Shown piece after piece: positions 16,007-25,118 of a stretch of 64,000 bases of DNA. The notes under the pieces were generated by a model. It ran no database searches and had not been told where the DNA came from. It saw nothing but the letters and a program-made list of their open reading frames with translations. Numbering within the stretch: the stretch's first letter is position 1; each line of letters begins with the position of its first letter. The DNA is from Alcaligenaceae bacterium (lineage in GTDB: Bacteria; Pseudomonadota; Gammaproteobacteria; Burkholderiales; Burkholderiaceae_B). Where the stretch lies: the NCBI GenBank assembly GCA_013416405.1, contig JACCET010000002.1, positions 186,001 to 250,000 of the forward strand. Direction: 5' to 3'. The translations under genes were made by a program, and so were the position numbers.

Positions 16007-17068
16007 TCAAGGCAGGTTTTCGTTCAACACCACGCTGATATGCATGGGTTCGACCCCGGCCATGGCATCACGTCCGGCACGAAGATTGGCAAAGATACGC
16101 ACGCTGTTCATGATGGTGGAGTGCAGATTCTGATTCAGCAGTGCATCGAGCGAGCCGTCGACCAGCAGGGCGCGGGTATCGGGTGTTAAGCCGTGCCCGA
16201 TGAAAACCGTATTCTGGTCGCGCCCGGCTTCTTTCAGGGCTTGCGCCACGCCGTCGGATGCACCACCGATGTTGTAGATGCCAACCAGATCGGGGTATTG
16301 CTTGAGCAGTTGTTTGGACTGGCGATAATTGATGCTTGCGTCGTCGTGCCCTTCGCGCAGGCCGACGACGGTCAGGTTGGGAAATTTTTCTTCAAGAATA
16401 TGCTGGAAGCCCATTTCGCGCTCTTCGTGGCCGCGATAGTTGCGGCTGCCCGCGATCATGGCGACTTTGCCTGCGCGCGGCCCGACAAAGCGGCCCATTA
16501 ATAGGCCGGCGCTGCGGCCCGCAGCGCGATTATCCAGGCCAACATAAGCGGCGCGGCGCGAGCTGGACAAGTCTGAAATCAGGGTCAGCGTGTGCACGTT
16601 CTTTTCAGCCAGTGTGTTGACGGCTTCGCGCACCAACGGGTGTTCCAGCGCCATGAAGGCTATGCCATCGGCGCGCCGGCTTTCGCGCAGCAGGCTTTCG
16701 ACCAGTATTTGCGGGTTGAAGCCTTCAATGTAGCGGCATCGACATTGCACGTTGAAGGGTTCGAATTGATCGTGTGCGATGCTGACAAAGTCGCCCAACA
16801 TATTCAGGAAGCGGTTGGTGCCGGCAGGCAACAGAAATACCAACCGCATGGGCTGCGGGCGTAATGCCCGATAAAGATCGTCTTGTGGCAGGTAGCCCAG
16901 ATCGGCGGCTGCTTTCAGCACAGCCTGAACGGTGGCTGGCCTGACGCCTGGCCTATGGTTCAGCACCCGATCAACGGTCGCTGTGGATACGCCCGCGCGT
17001 GCGGCGACTTCGGCGATGCCTATGCGTGATTTTTCGCTGCCGACTTTCATTCCATCATATTCCATCAT
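16007..17068 (-). CDS. LacI-family transcriptional regulator
   Basis: This is a 353-residue regulator. The N-terminal LacI helix-turn-helix and hinge are clear (IAEVAARAGVSTATVDRVLN, then VRPATVQAVLKAAADLGY). A periplasmic-binding-protein-like sensor domain follows from about residue 70 (LRPQPMRLVFLLPAGTNRF). It resembles the branch with ribose/galactose-like sensor domains. It is divergent from the transporter-RuBisCO-like operon, and a perfect 20-bp palindrome lies 22 bases upstream of its start, so it most likely represses that operon and itself until the substrate, probably a sugar acid, is bound. Either ATG at 17068 or one at 17050 could be the start; no strong RBS decides. Confidence 0.92.
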   Translation of the reverse strand: MMEYDGMKVGSEKSRIGIAEVAARAGVSTATVDRVLNHRPGVRPATVQAVLKAAADLGYLPQDDLYRALRPQPMRLVFLLPAGTNRFLNMLGDFVSIAHDQFEPFNVQCRCRYIEGFNPQILVESLLRESRRADGIAFMALEHPLVREAVNTLAEKNVHTLTLISDLSSSRRAAYVGLDNRAAGRSAGLLMGRFVGPRAGKVAMIAGSRNYRGHEEREMGFQHILEEKFPNLTVVGLREGHDDASINYRQSKQLLKQYPDLVGIYNIGGASDGVAQALKEAGRDQNTVFIGHGLTPDTRALLVDGSLDALLNQNLHSTIMNSVRIFANLRAGRDAMAGVEPMHISVVLNENLP

Positions 17069-17089: not shown

Positions 17090-17109
17090 ATGCCTAAAAT
17101 TTTAGGCAT
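17090..17109. promoter_or_regulatory. 20-bp perfect palindrome, candidate LacI operator
   Basis: ATGCCTAAAATTTTAGGCAT is perfectly self-complementary and lies between the divergent LacI gene and the transporter operon. Its right half overlaps a possible -35 (TTAGGC, 17102) that is 17 bases from TAGAAT (17125-17130), so binding would repress the operon. A second dyad, TGATGTTTT-N14-AAAACATCA (17132-17163), lies downstream and could be an auxiliary site. Confidence 0.72.
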
Positions 17110-17258: not shown

Positions 17259-17942
17259 ATGAATTACGAATTCGATTTTTCATCCGTATTGGCCCAATGG
17301 CCAGTGTTCCTTGAAGGAGCCTGGCTGACCATACAGCTGTCGGTTCCGGCCACGATAGTGGGTCTGGTACTAGGTACGCTTTTCGCCATAGGCCGGCGCA
17401 GCACCATACGTTCGCTTTCCCGGTTCTGCGGTTTCTATGTCGAGATCGTGCGCAACACACCTTTCCTGGTGCAGATATTTCTGGTCTTTTTTGGCATGGC
17501 CAATCTGGGTTGGAGAGTCTCGGCATTTGCGGCGGGTTTGCTGGCCCTGATCATTAACGTTGCAGCATATACCTGCGAAATCATGCGAGCAGGCATGGAC
17601 TCGGTTCATCCAGGGCAGATCGAGGCCGCCGAATGCCTGGGGCTGACGAAAAGACAGGTTTACTGGCATGTTATTTTGTTGCCGGCCATGGAAAAGGTCT
17701 ATCCCGCCCTGACCAGCCAGTTTGTGCTGCTGATGTTGGCCTCATCCATTACGTCGCAGATCTCGGTCGAAGAGCTGACGGCCGTCGCCAGCCGGGTGCA
17801 GTCCGAGACCTTCCGCCCCTTCGAAGCCTATATTCTGGTAGCCGTCGTCTACCTGGCGCTGTCGCTGCTGATGCGTATAGGCATGTGGGGATTCGGGCAG
17901 TTGGTGTTTGCTCGTCGTCGCCGTTTGAAGACTACAGGGTGA
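17259..17942 (+). CDS. Polar amino acid-type ABC transporter permease 1
   Basis: This is a 227-residue inner-membrane permease of the HisM/GlnP (PAAT) family with about five hydrophobic segments. The early segment WLTIQLSVPATIVGLVLGTL and the EAA loop (GQIEAAECLGLTKRQVYWHVILLPAM) that docks the ATPase are clear. It is the first gene of the operon, 150 bases from the operator palindrome, and is followed after 4 bases by a second permease. PAAT transporters normally import amino acids or opines; the downstream enzymes here point to a sugar-acid-like substrate. Confidence 0.93.
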   Translation: MNYEFDFSSVLAQWPVFLEGAWLTIQLSVPATIVGLVLGTLFAIGRRSTIRSLSRFCGFYVEIVRNTPFLVQIFLVFFGMANLGWRVSAFAAGLLALIINVAAYTCEIMRAGMDSVHPGQIEAAECLGLTKRQVYWHVILLPAMEKVYPALTSQFVLLMLASSITSQISVEELTAVASRVQSETFRPFEAYILVAVVYLALSLLMRIGMWGFGQLVFARRRRLKTTG

Positions 17943-17946
17943 AGCC

Positions 17947-18618
17947 ATGATATCCGGTGGATTTACATACGCGCATTTCGAGTTCCTGCTGCAAGGTGCG
18001 GTCTGGACGATATGCCTATCGCTGATCGCCTTTATCGGCGGCGGGGTGGCCGGCGGCATAGTAGCCTTGCTGCGCATCAGCTCCATGGCTCCGGTCAGAT
18101 GGCTGTCTTATCTTTATGTGCAGGTGATACAGGGCACACCGTTGTTGGTGCTGCTGTTTGTGGCGTACTTCGGTTTGAGCATAGCGGGCCTGACCCTTAC
18201 GGGTCTGGCCGCAGCCGGCATTGCAATGGTGATTTATGTCAGCGCCTATCTGGGTGAAATATGGCGTGGCTGCATAGAGTCGGTTGCCAAAACCCAATGG
18301 GAAGCAGCCGAGTGCCTGGCACTGTCGCGCAGCCAGCGCATGCGCCTGGTCATTTTGCCGCAGGCCATGCGTATTGCCACGCCGCCCACGGTGGGCTTCA
18401 TGGTGCAAATCGTCAAGAACACCTCGCTGGCTTCCATAGTGGGCTTTGTGGAGCTGGTGCGGGCCGGGCAGTTGATCAACAACTCCATTTTCCAGCCCTT
18501 CCTGGTCTATGTCTTGATAGCGCTGTTTTATTTTGCGATGTGCTATCCCTTGTCGGTGTGGAGCCGCAAGCTCGAACGCAAGCTTCAGTACGGCGCACGT
18601 TCCACACTGAGCGCATAA
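17947..18618 (+). CDS. Polar amino acid-type ABC transporter permease 2
   Basis: This is a 223-residue partner permease of the same family. Its N-terminal segment reads FLLQGAVWTICLSLIAFIGG, and the EAA loop is TQWEAAECLALSRSQRMRLVILPQAM. It forms the membrane channel with the preceding gene as a heterodimer, to judge from the tight spacing and similar topology. The ATPase gene begins 11 bases downstream. Nothing in the sequence indicates the ligand. Confidence 0.93.
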   Translation: MISGGFTYAHFEFLLQGAVWTICLSLIAFIGGGVAGGIVALLRISSMAPVRWLSYLYVQVIQGTPLLVLLFVAYFGLSIAGLTLTGLAAAGIAMVIYVSAYLGEIWRGCIESVAKTQWEAAECLALSRSQRMRLVILPQAMRIATPPTVGFMVQIVKNTSLASIVGFVELVRAGQLINNSIFQPFLVYVLIALFYFAMCYPLSVWSRKLERKLQYGARSTLSA

Positions 18619-18629
18619 AAGGAAAAACT

Positions 18630-19358
18630 ATGTCGATAGTGGTTGAACTGAAAGACGTTCATAAAAGCTTTGGCGCCAACCAAGTGTTGAAAGGCGTGTC
18701 GTTTGAGGTTGCCAAGGGGCAGGTCGTGGCCATCATCGGGCAAAGCGGCTCAGGTAAAAGCACGGCTTTGCGTTGCATAGACCACCTGGAGGTCATCGAT
18801 CAGGGGCAGATCAATGTATGCGGGCATCGCGTGCACGATGACGGGATCAACCTGCGTTCGTTGCGTACCGACGTGGGCATAGTCTTTCAAAGCTACAACC
18901 TGTTCCCGCATCTTACGGTTGCACAGAACGTAATGCTTGCTCCGCGCGCGGTCAAGAAAAAGTCCAAGGAAGAAGCGCTGGCTATCAGCAACCGCACCCT
19001 GAAGCAGGTGGGCCTGCTGGAAAAAGCGGATGCCTATCCCGAGCAGCTCTCGGGCGGACAGCAACAGCGCGTCGCGATTGCACGGTCATTGGCCATGGAG
19101 CCCAAGGTCATGCTGTTCGATGAGGTCACGTCGGCGCTGGATCCGCAACTGACGGGGGAAGTCCTACGTGTTATCGAGCAACTGGCCGCCGAAGGTATGA
19201 CTATGGTGCTGGTTACCCATGAAATGGAGTTTGCGGCAAAAGTGGCCGACACCATTATCTACATGCACCAGGGCAAGGTCTGGGAAACGGGCAGCGGCGA
19301 GATGCTGCGCAAGCCGCAGACGGCCGAATTGCAGGAATTTCTGGCGTTTGGGCTGTGA
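18630..19358 (+). CDS. Polar amino acid-type ABC transporter ATPase
   Basis: This is a 242-residue nucleotide-binding subunit. Walker A is GQSGSGKST (near residue 38), the Q-loop is FQSYNLFPHLTVAQNV, the ABC signature is LSGGQQQR and Walker B is VMLFDEVTSALD; the switch histidine is in VTHEMEFA. The ATG at 18630 follows AAAGGAAAAACT and gives the family N-terminus, so the long upstream frame from 18261, which runs antisense-like through the permease, was rejected. It powers uptake through the two permeases upstream. Confidence 0.95.
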   Translation: MSIVVELKDVHKSFGANQVLKGVSFEVAKGQVVAIIGQSGSGKSTALRCIDHLEVIDQGQINVCGHRVHDDGINLRSLRTDVGIVFQSYNLFPHLTVAQNVMLAPRAVKKKSKEEALAISNRTLKQVGLLEKADAYPEQLSGGQQQRVAIARSLAMEPKVMLFDEVTSALDPQLTGEVLRVIEQLAAEGMTMVLVTHEMEFAAKVADTIIYMHQGKVWETGSGEMLRKPQTAELQEFLAFGL

Positions 19359-19417: not shown

Positions 19418-20215
19418 ATGAAACTGAAAAAAATACTATCCCTGGGTACGCTGGCGCTGTGCCTGGGTGCCTTTACCGGCGCGGCTTCAGCCGATGCGCT
19501 GGCCGATATCAAAGCGGCCAAGAAAGTGCGGGTCGGTATCGATCTGGGTGCGCCTTTTTACGGCTATATCGATGGGAAAATGCAGGCGGTCGGTTCCGAC
19601 GTCGAGGCTGCGAAATTGCTGGCCGAAGATCTGGGCGTTGAACTGGAAATTGTTCAAACGACCAACTCTGCACGCATTCCCAATCTTCTGTCGAACAAGG
19701 CCGATCTGATCATTTCGTCACTGTCCATTACGCCAGAACGTGCCAAGGCGGTTGATTTTTCGATTCCTTACGGCGCCATTCAGGCAGCGGTTGGCGCGCC
19801 CAAGAGCCTGGATATCAAGGGCATGGATGACCTGGCCGGCAAGTCGGTTGCGGTGACCCGTGGCGGGCCGCAAGACAAGCTGGTTTCTGAAGGCGCGCCC
19901 AAAGCCAAGGTCGTACGCTTTGACGACGAGGCCGCTTCCATCACAGCCGCTGCTACCGGACAAACCGATATCGTGGCAATTACGCCACCCATTATCAGCG
20001 CCATCAGCAAACGCAATCCCGAGCGCGAGTTCGAGGTCAAGTTTGTCATTCAGTCTTATCAACTGGGTGTTGCCATGCGCAAGAACGAGCCGCAACTGAA
20101 GGAATGGGTTAATGAATGGATACGTACCAATCTGAAGAATGGCAAGCTTAACGACATTCATGTGAAGTACGCCGGCGTGCCTATCCCCGAAGAAATCGTA
20201 CAAGGCACCAACTGA
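19418..20215 (+). CDS. Periplasmic receptor, amino acid-type (SBP_bac_3)
   Basis: This is a 265-residue solute-binding protein. A Sec signal peptide (KKILSLGTLALCLGAFTGAASA) ends near residue 24. The mature domain shows the SBP_bac_3 pattern: VRVGIDLGAPFYGYIDGKMQAVGSDVEAAKLLAEDLG in outline, then DLIISSLSITPERAKAVDFSIPY, where the arginine normally clamps an alpha-carboxylate. The ATG at 19418 (AACGGAGACAATC upstream) is preferred to 19355, which lies in the end of the ATPase gene. It delivers the ligand to the permeases. A carboxylate-bearing ligand is suggested by the conserved Arg and by the enzymes downstream. Confidence 0.94.
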   Translation: MKLKKILSLGTLALCLGAFTGAASADALADIKAAKKVRVGIDLGAPFYGYIDGKMQAVGSDVEAAKLLAEDLGVELEIVQTTNSARIPNLLSNKADLIISSLSITPERAKAVDFSIPYGAIQAAVGAPKSLDIKGMDDLAGKSVAVTRGGPQDKLVSEGAPKAKVVRFDDEAASITAAATGQTDIVAITPPIISAISKRNPEREFEVKFVIQSYQLGVAMRKNEPQLKEWVNEWIRTNLKNGKLNDIHVKYAGVPIPEEIVQGTN

Positions 20216-20292: not shown

Positions 20293-20832
20293 ATGAGCAA
20301 GTTTTTTGGCGAGATTCGTCAGTTGGGTTATGTCGTCAAGGATATCGAGGCGGCCATGGAGTACTGGAGCAACACCTTGGGTGTCGGCCCCTGGTATTAC
20401 AACCCCAAGGTGCCTATCAAGAATTACCGCTATCGCGACGAAATCTACGAGCCGCATAATTCCGTGGCGCTGGCCAATTCAGGTTTTGTGCAGGTCGAGC
20501 TGATTCAATGCCGCAACGACGTGCCATCGATGTACCGCGATTTCCTGCAGGCCGGCAACACCGGTTTGCAACACGTGGCTTACTGGACGGAAAGCTATGA
20601 CAACGATCTTGCCAGGCTGGTGGCGCAGGGCTTTCGCCCGGTCATGAGCGGTGAAGTGGGCGAGCGCGGGCGCTTTGTGTACTTCGATACCGAATATCAC
20701 CCGGGTACGGTCATCGAACTGTCGGAAGTGGCCGGGCCCAAGGGCAAGCTGTTTGACCTGATCCGCAATGAGTCGCAAGAATGGGATGGTCACGATCCCG
20801 TGCGTGCTTTCCCCGATCTGAGCACACTGTAG
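20293..20832 (+). CDS. VOC-fold (glyoxalase-like) protein
   Basis: This is a 179-residue vicinal-oxygen-chelate protein with two beta-alpha-beta-beta-beta units. It begins like methylmalonyl-CoA epimerases (LGYVVKDIEAAMEYWSNTLGVGPW). The metal-ligand positions read Q10, E69 (QVELIQ), H94 (LQHVAYW) and E142 (TVIELSE), compared with His, Gln, His and Glu in methylmalonyl-CoA epimerase, so a metal site is retained but altered. It has AGGAACAGGA upstream of the start. Lying between the receptor and the RuBisCO-like gene, it may epimerise or isomerise an intermediate of the same pathway. The actual reaction is not deducible. Confidence 0.85.
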   Translation: MSKFFGEIRQLGYVVKDIEAAMEYWSNTLGVGPWYYNPKVPIKNYRYRDEIYEPHNSVALANSGFVQVELIQCRNDVPSMYRDFLQAGNTGLQHVAYWTESYDNDLARLVAQGFRPVMSGEVGERGRFVYFDTEYHPGTVIELSEVAGPKGKLFDLIRNESQEWDGHDPVRAFPDLSTL

Positions 20833-20883: not shown

Positions 20884-22152
20884 ATGAATTCAGAACGCTT
20901 TCATGCCACCTATCTAATAGAGACCCCTCTGGATCCAGCCAAGGTGGCGAATGTCATGGCCGGGGAACAGTCTTGCGGCACGTTTACACGAGTGCATGGC
21001 GAGACCGATGAGTTGCGGGAACGGGCCCGCGCAACCGTAGAGCAGCTGGACGTGCTGGATGTGTCAGATAGCCCTGCGCTGCCTAATGCCTGGCTGGACA
21101 GGCAAGGCAACAAAGGGCCCTGGCAGCGTGCCAGGGTGCGCATTTCCTTCCCGGTGGACAATATCGGAGCCAATCTGCCCACGCTGGCGTCTACGGTAGC
21201 AGGCAATCTGTACGACCTGGGCGAGACCACGGGCATGCGCCTTGAAACGCTGCATTTACCCGCCGCCTATCGCCAGCGCTTTGACATGCCCAGGCACGGG
21301 GTGGCCGGTACGCGCCGCCTGGCCGGTGTGGAACAAGGCCCTTTGCTGGGTACCATCATCAAGCCCAACGTTGGCTTGTCGCCGGCTCAGACAGCCGAGT
21401 TGGTCGGGCAGCTATGCCAGGCTGGCGTTGATTTCATCAAAGACGATGAAATCTGTGCCGACCCGGTGCATGCGCCGTTGGCCGAGCGCGTGGCCGCCGT
21501 GATGGCGGTGGTGCGCGAGCATGAGCAGCGCATCGGCAAGGCCGTCATGGTGGCATTCAATATCACCGACGAAACCGATGCCATGCGTCGCCATGCCGAG
21601 TTGGTGGAGCGCGAAGGTGGCAGTTGCGTCATGGTCAGTCTTAATTATTGCGGGTACTCTGCGGTGCAGACCTTGCGCCGCAGTACCTCTCTGGTTTTGC
21701 ATGGCCACCGCAACGGCTACGGCGCCATGGCGCGTCATCCCTTGCTGGGTATTTCGTTTCAGGCCTACCAGACGCTTTGGCGTCTGTCCGGTGTCGATCA
21801 CATGCACGTTCATGGCCTGCAAGGCAAGTTTTCCCAGGAAGATCAAGAGGTCGTGGACTCGGCTCGTGATTGCCTTGCGCCGCTGGCCGACGGACTTGAC
21901 GACCAGGTCATGCCAGCATTTTCATCCGGGCAGTGGGCGGGTACGGTGCCGGCCACATTCGATGCCGTAGGCAGCGATGACTTGCTGTTCATGTCGGGTG
22001 GCGGCATATTGGCCCACCCCGATGGTCCTGCCGCCGGGATAGTCAGCTTGCGCCAGGCCTGGAGCGCGGCCCACAGCGGCGTGCCGTTATCCGACTACGC
22101 CGTGAACGCGCCGGAATTGCGTCGCGCGCTGGAATTCTTCGGCGGCAGGTAA
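20884..22152 (+). CDS. oiaX: RuBisCO-like protein (RLP), candidate OiaX
   Basis: This is a 422-residue form-IV RuBisCO homologue. Key active-site positions are retained: K160 in GTIIKPNVGL (RuBisCO K175), the carbamate motif K186-D188-E189 in DFIKDDE (K201, D203, E204), H275-R276 in HGHRNG (H294, R295), K315 in a loop-6-like GKFSQE, and SGGG at 371. The N-terminal domain is divergent, so CO2 fixation is not expected. RLPs next to DUF1537 kinases are known to act on 3-oxo-isoapionate 4-phosphate in D-apiose breakdown (OiaX), cleaving off or hydrolysing a carboxyl unit. The DUF1537 kinase follows after 4 bases. The symbol is tentative because the wider gene context differs from the described clusters. 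Confidence 0.85.
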   Translation: MNSERFHATYLIETPLDPAKVANVMAGEQSCGTFTRVHGETDELRERARATVEQLDVLDVSDSPALPNAWLDRQGNKGPWQRARVRISFPVDNIGANLPTLASTVAGNLYDLGETTGMRLETLHLPAAYRQRFDMPRHGVAGTRRLAGVEQGPLLGTIIKPNVGLSPAQTAELVGQLCQAGVDFIKDDEICADPVHAPLAERVAAVMAVVREHEQRIGKAVMVAFNITDETDAMRRHAELVEREGGSCVMVSLNYCGYSAVQTLRRSTSLVLHGHRNGYGAMARHPLLGISFQAYQTLWRLSGVDHMHVHGLQGKFSQEDQEVVDSARDCLAPLADGLDDQVMPAFSSGQWAGTVPATFDAVGSDDLLFMSGGGILAHPDGPAAGIVSLRQAWSAAHSGVPLSDYAVNAPELRRALEFFGGR

Positions 22153-22156
22153 GCGC

Positions 22157-23482
22157 ATGGCGCGGCACAAAACCCGACTGGCTTTCTACGCCGACGATTT
22201 CACCGGCGCAACCGATACCTTGTCGACGGTAGCCCGCGCCGGTTATCGCAGCATGTTGTTCCTGCGCCTGCCGACCAGCCGGCAATTGCACGATGCCGGT
22301 GCGCTGGATTGTCTGGGTATTGCGGGTGCTGCCCGTTCCATGCACGAACCAGAGCAAGTCGCGGAGCTGGAGTCGGCGGGTCGGTTCTTGCGCGAAGTGG
22401 GCGCAAGCGTTACGCATTACAAAACCTGCTCCACCTTCGATAGTTCGCCTGACACGGGCAGCATAGGCCGTGCCGTTCAGACGTTGCGCAAGCAACTACG
22501 GCCGGTGCAGTTTATGCCCATAGTCGGGGGGCAGCCCAATCTGGGTCGATACTGTGTGTTCGGCAATCTGTTCGCGGCCTTTCGTACGGGGGACGCGGCC
22601 TTTCGCCTGGATCGCCATCCCACCATGAGCCGGCATCCCGTGACGCCCATGCACGAGGCCGATCTGCGCCTGCATCTGGCACAGCAGGGGCTAGAGCAAG
22701 TCGGTTTGGTGGAATATCCCGCCTATGCATTGGCACCGGCGCAATTCCATGCCTTGTTGGATCAGACCATTACCGAACATCCCGACGGCGTTCTGTTTGA
22801 CGTGGGGCAGTCCGAGCATCTGGCCACGGTGGGCCAAGCCATCTGGCGGCATGCCCGCAATCAGCCGCTGCTGGCCGTTGGGCCCAGCAGCGTGGCCCAG
22901 GCGCTCATTGCGCATTGGAATGAATCCGGCAAGGGCGCTGCGCAAGCTCAGGCTCACGCCATGGTGTCAGCGCAAGACCCCGTCTTCGTCATGTCGGGCA
23001 GTCGCTCACCCGTGACGGCGATGCAAATCGCAGCCGCGAACTCTTATGAGCGCATCCCCATGAATGCGGCACTTTTGTGTGCAGGGGCGGGCGATGCCTA
23101 TGACGCCCTGCTGGGCCAGGTCGTGGCCGGTTTGGCTGGGGGCAGGCATGTGCTGACCTACGTGGCCGACGAGCCGCAGCAGGCGCGCCCGGTTGCGGCA
23201 TCCGTTTTGGCTCAGGCTTGCGGGCGCTTCCTGGCTCGGGTGCTGGTGCAAGGCCGGCCGGCCAGGGTGGGCGTCGCCGGCGGTGATACCTCCAGCCTGG
23301 CATTGAAGTCGCTTGATGTATGGGGTTTGTCGTATATGGGCCAAGTGGATCCGGGGGCAGCTCTGTGCCGCATGCATTCTGATCTTGACTACCTGTCGGG
23401 CGTGGAAGTCATGCTCAAGGGCGGGCAAATGGGTTCGGAGCAGGTATTCGAGAAACTGATTGCGCCCGATCGGGCATGCTAG
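22157..23482 (+). CDS. oiaK: DUF1537 four-carbon acid sugar kinase, candidate OiaK
   Basis: This is a 441-residue two-domain kinase of the DUF1537 family, which phosphorylates tetronate-type and branched acid sugars with ATP. The N-terminal substrate domain has YADDFTGATDTL (residues 11-22) and HYKTCSTFDSSPDTGSIG around K89. The C-terminal nucleotide domain has the glycine-rich GVAGGDTSS and KGGQMG motifs. It is translationally close to the RuBisCO-like gene (4-base gap). Known partners are PdxA2, class II aldolases or RLPs; with an RLP the described substrate is 3-oxo-isoapionate. The start is the ATG at 22157. The family assignment is secure and the exact substrate is inferred. Confidence 0.88.
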   Translation: MARHKTRLAFYADDFTGATDTLSTVARAGYRSMLFLRLPTSRQLHDAGALDCLGIAGAARSMHEPEQVAELESAGRFLREVGASVTHYKTCSTFDSSPDTGSIGRAVQTLRKQLRPVQFMPIVGGQPNLGRYCVFGNLFAAFRTGDAAFRLDRHPTMSRHPVTPMHEADLRLHLAQQGLEQVGLVEYPAYALAPAQFHALLDQTITEHPDGVLFDVGQSEHLATVGQAIWRHARNQPLLAVGPSSVAQALIAHWNESGKGAAQAQAHAMVSAQDPVFVMSGSRSPVTAMQIAAANSYERIPMNAALLCAGAGDAYDALLGQVVAGLAGGRHVLTYVADEPQQARPVAASVLAQACGRFLARVLVQGRPARVGVAGGDTSSLALKSLDVWGLSYMGQVDPGAALCRMHSDLDYLSGVEVMLKGGQMGSEQVFEKLIAPDRAC

Positions 23483-24359: not shown

Positions 24360-25118
24360 CTAGCCGCGTCCGACGAACGGCATTTTTGTGGCCATAACGG
24401 TCATGAACTGTACATTGGCATCCAGCGGCAGACTGGCCATGTAAAGCACGGCGTTCGCAACGTGCTCAACATTCATCAAAGGTTCAGGCCGGGTCGAGCC
24501 GTCGGCCTGCAGCACGCCACGGCCCATGACTTCGGTCATCTCGCTCGCGGCGTTGCCGATATCGATCTGGCCGCAGGCAATATCATATTTGCGCCCGTCG
24601 AGCGAAGTGGCTTTGGTCAGCCCTGTGATGGCATGCTTGGTTGCTGTGTACGAGACGGCGTTGGGGCGCGGCGCATGGGCTGAAATAGAGCCATTGTTGA
24701 TGATGCGGCCGCCTTGCGGCTGCTGTGCCTTCATCAGGCGAAAGGCACCTTGCGTGCATAGAAAGGCACCGGTCAGGTTAATGTCGACGGCCGCCTTCCA
24801 TTGCTCGTACTCCAGTTCTTCGAGCGAGACCGAGCGGGCAAATATACCGGCATTGTTGAACAACAGGTCAAGCCGGCCAAAGTGTTCCGAAATCTGTTCG
24901 AAAAGGTGTTGAACCGCGGCGGGGTCGCTGACGTCGGCGGGCACGACCAGTGTGCGAACGCCGTGTGCCTGAGCCTGCTGCGCCGTGGCTTCCAGGGGTT
25001 CTGTTCTTCGCCCGGTCAGCGCAACGCAGTAGCCCGCGCCGGCCAGCGCCAGGGCGATGCTTTTGCCTATGCCTGAGCCCGCGCCGGTAATCAGTGCGAA
25101 TTTTTCCTGTGTACTCAT
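24360..25118 (-). CDS. Short-chain dehydrogenase/reductase
   Basis: This is a 252-residue classical SDR. The cofactor motif [10 protein letters not shown] is at residues 11-20 and NNAG at 88-91. The catalytic residues are S144, Y157 and K161 in the pattern S-x12-Y-T-A-T-K. The sequence after the active site ([13 protein letters not shown]) departs from the usual PGxV/IxT loop. The gene is convergent with mtfA and stands alone. It is a possible oxidoreductase for the acid-sugar locus just upstream, but its opposite orientation and the intervening mtfA make that speculative. Confidence 0.92.

Follow-up and report, generated by a model that had tools for sequence, protein, structure and literature searches.

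The window, a stretch of 64,000 nucleotides analysed as a whole, encodes at 20884–22152 on the forward strand a RuBisCO-like protein (RLP) of 422 residues that keeps 16 of 20 RuBisCO active-site positions and belongs to a clade, called N177 here, typically found between a VOC protein and a DUF1537 acid-sugar kinase. With a probability of roughly 60%, we read this RLP as an enzyme that would decarboxylate a phosphorylated 3-oxo acid, or transcarboxylate and hydrolyse it, acting as the carbon-chain-breaking enzyme in the catabolism of an imported acid.

Fold and active site of the RLP

The RLP is a form IV member of the RuBisCO superfamily: both domains are present, and the active site departs from that of RuBisCO at W66F, T173I, K177N and G380S. 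Its frame runs uninterrupted from the ATG at 20884 to the stop codon that ends at 22152, and the single reverse frame translated from the opposite strand of this region is interrupted by stops. Pfam finds RuBisCO_large (E = 7e-68) and RuBisCO_large_N (E = 1e-7), with PF00016 and PF02788 above their gathering scores. The predicted model (pLDDT 87.8) superposes on 3NWR, an RLP from Burkholderia fungorum, with Z 52.5 and 1.5 Å over 401 residues, and this is the closest solved structure among the matches listed. The two proteins share 70% identity over the aligned chain and all 20 active-site positions, and 3NWR falls within the N177 clade. Superposition on activated spinach RuBisCO (1AUS) gives Z 37.4 and 2.7 Å over 393 residues, and the RuBisCOs and other RLPs among the matches listed, 3NWR excepted, score Z 37–42. 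A literature search for the function of 3NWR or for a VOC-linked RLP found no paper.

The best NCBIfam match of the RLP is the OiaX equivalog NF042437, at 432.9 bits, which is 267 bits below the curated cut-off of 700; for comparison, the OiaX-type loci L119 and L121 score 784.7 and 759.4. The scores for MtnW (TIGR03332, 130.3 bits against 513.6) and form III RuBisCO (TIGR03326, 246.8 against 497.45) are also below their cut-offs, as is the score for every RuBisCO family in NCBIfam. The nearest named relative, at 95% identity, is from Pusillimonas sp. MFBS29. The 3.66-Mb genome that contains the window gave no second match to the RLP at E 0.001, although elsewhere the search does pick up distant homologues of RuBisCO (for example 33%, E = 3e-32, in G203).

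Regarding the active site, 20 positions were scored against two form I large subunits (L126 and L101), numbered throughout by what we take to be the spinach RuBisCO positions. Residues K160, K186, D188, E189, H275, R276 and K315 of the RLP correspond to K175, K201, D203, E204, H294, R295 and K334 in HMMER, MAFFT and BLAST alignments with form I, and the motif surroundings are gap-free. The first-pass annotation had described an RLP with nearly all catalytic positions of RuBisCO retained, and had staked its proposal on the match of these lysines with K175, K201 and K334; the score of 16 agrees with this description, every residue that it named lies where it had been placed, and all three methods align the lysines as proposed. 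Since the structural superposition yields ranges and no residue pairs, the match of the lysines is that of the sequence alignments. The SGGG motif of the same annotation is present at 371–374; it aligns, however, with RuBisCO 402–405 and not with S379–G381, which are S347–G349 here. Further positions kept are E28 (E60), T33 (T65), N108 (N123), H306 (H325), H308 (H327), S347 (S379), G349 (G381) and G372/G373 (G403/G404), and L335F joins the four substitutions given above.

Other RLPs keep fewer of the 20 positions: 11 in OiaX (L119), 10 in MtnW (L122) and nine in an RLP linked to a DXP synthase (L125), so the earlier remark that many RLPs have lost several of them is right for those compared. 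MtnW, the 2,3-diketo-5-methylthiopentyl-1-phosphate enolase, shares the RuBisCO fold and keeps K175, K201, D203, E204 and H294; in contrast to our RLP, it has lost R295, H327 and K334 and has methionine-salvage neighbours. The N177 clade thus combines a solved representative, 3NWR, with an active site nearer to that of RuBisCO than those of OiaX or MtnW, and with an operon signature, the VOC partner together with Asn177. RLPs are of interest here because they show which parts of the RuBisCO active site serve which step, and the retained E60, N123 and H327 could be tied to retained partial reactions of RuBisCO.

The cassette and the three types of RLP locus

The cassette consists of a LacI regulator, a TRAP or amino-acid-type ABC importer, the VOC protein, the RLP and the DUF1537 kinase, whereas the ApnO dehydrogenase and the isomerases that occur near OiaX are missing from it. 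In the window, the LacI-family gene (16007–17068, reverse strand) diverges from the others, which all lie on the forward strand: two ABC permeases (17259–17942 and 17947–18618), a GlnQ-like ATP-binding protein that scores below the cut-off (18630–19358, its start placed within an ORF beginning at 18261; profile searches used 18621), a family-3 periplasmic solute-binding protein (19418–20215, its start placed within an ORF beginning at 19355), the VOC/Glyoxalase_4 protein of 179 residues, a predicted isomerase (20293–20832), the RLP and, after a gap of 4 nucleotides, the four-carbon acid-sugar kinase with SBD_N and NBD_C domains (22157–23482). The best NCBIfam match of the kinase is the 3-oxo-isoapionate kinase OiaK (NF042436), at 302 bits against a cut-off of 700; the kinase adjoining OiaX in L119 itself scores just 473.5 bits. 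Between LacI and the importer lies a perfect 20-bp palindrome (17090–17109), a possible operator. It is missing from the closest sister locus, L002, and no conserved LacI operator was found among 77 intergenic regions compared.

A dehydrogenase of the SDR family is encoded at 24360–25118 on the reverse strand, two genes downstream of the kinase, and among 80 loci compared a close counterpart at the same site occurs only in L002. A dehydrogenase was rejected as a core member of the cassette: only four of these 80 loci (L038, L042, L053 and L074) have an SDR of the tested family between the LacI gene and the importer.

These 80 genome-contig loci come from other genomes (Pusillimonas, Variovorax, Azospirillum, Bosea, Bordetella, Polaromonas and others). 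The VOC gene immediately precedes the RLP gene in all 80 and the kinase follows it in 79, the exception (L007) being a contig that ends. LacI is present in 77, the other three (L004, L011 and L032) being short contigs. Fifteen loci carry an importer of the amino-acid ABC type and the rest a TRAP system, except L032, where the contig is cut; a TRAP binding protein without its permease is found in L062, L066 and L068, and in L235 from another search. The mean column identity among aligned members is highest for the VOC protein (87%, 37 sequences), followed by the RLP (80%, 41) and DctP (79%, 29). Residues Q10, E69, H94 and E142 of the VOC protein, which we take to be a glyoxalase-I-like metal set, are invariant in the 37 aligned orthologues, and the only significant PDB match of this protein is 3GM5. 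This conserved neighbour, absent from the first-pass annotation, sets the RLP apart.

An earlier count of 173 loci (these 80, 12 on plasmids, 80 further genome regions and the window) was extended to 179, which takes in all 71 RLP places in Hyphomicrobiales (that of G200 being L061) and all 17 places in Burkholderiales at 390 bits or more (that of G000 being the window). Neighbourhoods cover at most about 8–10 kb on each side, less on short contigs, and a genome may encode isomerases outside this range. Three types are distinguished by their active-site signature. The N177 type, that of our RLP, accounts for 97 of the 179 loci, of which 96 have VOC, 95 the kinase, 92 LacI and none ApnO or TIM/RpiB; the two loci without a kinase, L007 and L326, are contigs ending at the RLP. 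The S177 type accounts for 55, with ApnO in 36, VOC in one, the kinase in 52 and TIM/RpiB in none. The OiaX type, recognized by D60, G123 and Q327, accounts for 24, with ApnO in 11, TIM or RpiB in 10 and the kinase in 23. The difference in TIM/RpiB between the OiaX and S177 types (10/24 against 0/55) is significant over the 179 loci (Fisher test, 1e-6). It persists after the 173 loci are dereplicated at 86%, which leaves 32 N177 loci (all with VOC), 43 S177 loci (ApnO in 27, VOC in one, no isomerase) and 16 OiaX-type loci (ApnO in eight, an isomerase in seven); the p values are 3e-5 for OiaX against S177 and 2e-4 for OiaX against N177.

Because 82 of the 97 N177 loci were fetched by similarity to the RLP itself, they are not independent; one more is the window, and the other 14 came from searches with different queries, 13 of these having the VOC gene. 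L326, the one locus without it, is on a contig of 3,025 bases (genome G052) that has an N177 RLP at its end, and VOC, importer and LacI are absent from the 1.8 kb before the RLP. By eye, the upstream frames of this contig look like Sox sulfur-oxidation genes.

Trees were built from rows dereplicated at 86% (94 of the 173 loci) plus references, leaving out six loci added late. The N177 proteins and 3NWR form one clade with a support of 99, which occurs in many Burkholderiales and Alphaproteobacteria. The OiaX label was ruled out for our RLP by the NF042437 score, by the missing D60/G123/Q327 signature and by the tree. Nested in the S177 clade are three degenerate RLPs of Hyphomicrobiales (L233, L234 and L244), counted as a class of their own, which carry E204A, H294D and K334A or S, have no DUF1537 kinase nearby and probably do different chemistry. 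The RLPs in the plasmid records L112–L117 bear the annotation 'ribulose-bisphosphate carboxylase large subunit family protein'; calling RLPs ribulose-bisphosphate carboxylase can mislead and inflate surveys of CO2 fixation.

Predicted reaction and its alternatives

RLPs are described in the accessible part of PMC6302742 as decarboxylating, or transcarboxylating and hydrolysing, 3-oxo-isoapionate 4-phosphate. In our RLP, the kept carbamylation lysine, metal ligands, base and loop-6 lysine, together with the adjoining acid-sugar kinase and the chemistry of relatives at 40–44% identity, favour a phosphorylated 3-oxo acid as substrate and carboxyl chemistry as the reaction. The first-pass annotation had preferred such chemistry to that of an enolase or isomerase; the kept residues, the kinase and the related RLPs speak for this preference, but residues alone cannot separate a decarboxylase from a hydrolase or from other RLP chemistry, since OiaX does carboxyl chemistry despite the loss of E60, N123 and H327. 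Against our reading stand the curated cut-offs of OiaX and OiaK, both missed, and the changes of K177 to Asn, G380 to Ser and W66 to Phe.

The proposed pathway would begin with an organic acid imported via the TRAP or amino-acid-type ABC system; importers of both kinds commonly carry charged solutes. The VOC metalloenzyme may then catalyse a non-redox 1,2-shift that turns the acid into a 2-hydroxy-3-oxo sugar acid, the terminal hydroxyl of which would be phosphorylated by the DUF1537 kinase. With Mg2+ and a carbamylated K186, the RLP would remove the carboxylate to leave an enediolate and, more likely than stopping at decarboxylation like OiaX, could transfer the carboxyl back onto the adjacent carbon and hydrolyse the product. 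Worked out in this way, the products would be 3-phosphoglycerate and a small hydroxy acid, on what is possibly a new acid-catabolic route. The OiaT-like transcarboxylase/hydrolase subtype, taken alone, is a tentative assignment. It is suggested over the OiaX-like one by the kept E60, N123, H325, H327 and K334 and by the lack of a sugar-phosphate isomerase seen with the RLP; the absence of TIM/RpiB from all 97 N177 loci is consistent with a product that can be used without a C4-phosphate isomerase.

The S177 clade (L117 and 54 further loci) is the closest comparison for this subtype. Its proteins share 45% identity (L117) with our RLP and, in most cases, the same active-site set except at 177, and like N177 loci theirs have no TIM/RpiB; they differ in the frequent ApnO and the near absence of VOC. 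Operon content makes it probable that the S177/ApnO clade is OiaT-type: ApnO and the kinase often occur there without an isomerase, as expected for a transcarboxylase/hydrolase with directly usable products.

In the foremost alternative, the RLP would be a simple decarboxylase in the manner of OiaX that uses a different 3-oxo acid phosphate and yields a product, for example a ketose phosphate, that enters central metabolism without special isomerases. OiaX is the 3-oxo-isoapionate-4-phosphate decarboxylase, and its product is a C4 ketose phosphate, judging by the enzyme's name and the reaction cited; TIM- or RpiB-like genes accompany it in, for example, L119, L247 and L248. At 40–44% identity to our RLP, OiaX shares with it the lysines of carbamylation and loop 6 and the metal ligands, its loci have a kinase of the same family nearby, and OiaX is the family that scores best. 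A pentulose phosphate product would require no TIM/RpiB partner, and 14 of the 24 OiaX-type loci also do without these genes, so for any one locus their absence tells little. However, the OiaX type has D60, G123, A/S177, Q325 and Q327, and at these five positions our RLP differs from it and equals RuBisCO except at 177; moreover, the RLP lies outside the OiaX clade. We regard this alternative as rather unlikely.

It is improbable that our RLP, in the manner of MtnW or of the Rhodospirillum rubrum RLP, enolises or isomerises a phosphorylated diketo compound that another enzyme cleaves. Two RLPs with such functions are known, and an LsrF-like aldolase accompanies the kinase in related cassettes, an arrangement likened to the AI-2 route, where an isomerase precedes LsrF. 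However, R295, H327 and K334, lost from both MtnW and the DXP-linked RLP, are all kept in our protein, no separate cleaving enzyme is recognized in the cassette, and the seven aldolase loci have no adjoining RLP. Still less probable is an oxygenase, even though the active site could form an enediolate that reacts with O2 and an oxygenase RLP of the D-hamamelose pathway (Kim 2018) is cited in the accessible parts of PMC8914248 and PMC10176493: an SDR of the tested families at 40% identity or more occurs in only five of 95 N177 loci. A genuine CO2-fixing RuBisCO is hardly credible despite the 16 kept residues and the fold, given 28–30% identity to form I, the changed K177, W66, T173 and G380, a catabolic-looking operon and scores below all RuBisCO family cut-offs.

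Apparent exchange of RLP and aldolase beside the VOC gene

Three of 200 genomes in the Burkholderiales sample, including that of the window, carry a VOC gene at 65% identity or more, each beside an N177 RLP. The Hyphomicrobiales sample contains 22 VOC genes at 60% or more, 13 beside an RLP and nine without one. Seven of these nine (L311–L316 and L318, in seven genomes) have a TRAP importer, a DUF1537 kinase, a DeoR regulator and a DeoC/LacD-family aldolase (Pfam DeoC), the nearest solved structures of which are MJ0400 and LsrF. The aldolase belongs to another family than the RLP and has no RLP beside it; DeoR in all seven loci and PdxA in five (L311–L314 and L318) further distinguish them from the RLP cassette. 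The remaining two lack both kinase and aldolase nearby; L317 does have PdxA, which L319 lacks as well. Six VOC homologues at 47–52% (L320–L325) have no RLP nearby either; like L317 and L319, they caution against assuming that an RLP is a constant partner of the VOC protein. Of the seven genomes with aldolase loci, G354 and G289 carry an OiaX-type RLP elsewhere.

Gene order varies among these loci: in L315 and L316 the kinase and aldolase lie beyond the TRAP genes from VOC, and in L311–L314 a divergent PdxA lies between VOC and the kinase, so these genes may not form a single operon. In the VOC tree, L317 and L318 fall among the RLP-linked VOC proteins, apart from L311–L316; yet their PdxA proteins are 79–81% identical, and the L318 aldolase 82% identical, to those of L311. 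From this discrepancy, a cassette of the RLP type seems to have acquired the kinase–aldolase module. This apparent transfer is the best support, albeit indirect, for assigning RLP and aldolase to one and the same step of the pathway, and such an apparent natural swap narrows the possible chemistry. L311–L318, seven of the eight with kinase, DeoR and aldolase and often with PdxA, possibly represent an undescribed catabolic cassette.

One RLP can apparently also replace another. Locus L226 has a LacI–TRAP–VOC front, 59–81% identical to the versions of the window or of L009, followed by an RLP of the S177 clade, in place of an N177 protein, and by an OiaK-type kinase. Its RLP groups with the S177 proteins in the tree, and a single clade of all VOC-linked RLPs is rejected (p-AU 0.02, MtnW being omitted from the AU test).

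A more speculative proposal, on which we would not yet rely, is that the RLP and the LsrF-type class I aldolase are interchangeable for the same VOC product, with the RLP carrying out intramolecular carboxyl transfer and hydrolysis and the 3-oxo acid coming from the VOC isomerase instead of ApnO. If this were true, the transfer would be the carboxylation half-reaction of RuBisCO fed by the substrate's own carboxyl, and the same metabolic step would be filled by a RuBisCO homologue in some species and by an unrelated aldolase in others. In rhizobia, according to the accessible part of PMC8914248, mutants of RLP genes lose a biotin-independent growth recovery.

Finally, the TRAP solute-binding protein of the related cassette L009 is closest to 4OAN (Rhodopseudomonas palustris RPB_2686); its AlphaFold model is poor (pLDDT 49). 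The density bound in 4OAN was presumably modelled as 2-acetolactate, a 2-hydroxy-3-oxo acid. This ligand was rejected as a clue to the cassette substrate: the regions around close 4OAN relatives (L157–L166) gave no RLP match, and acyl-CoA synthetase, thiolase or IclR genes adjoin in the three annotated ones (L157, L159 and L161). Given these neighbourhoods, 4OAN looks like a paralogue and is not counted as evidence; the same context may reveal the ligand of the 4OAN relatives. Binding proteins related to that of L009 (48–56%) also lie beside S177 RLPs with dehydrogenase genes, in L115, L206, L230, L276 and L329.
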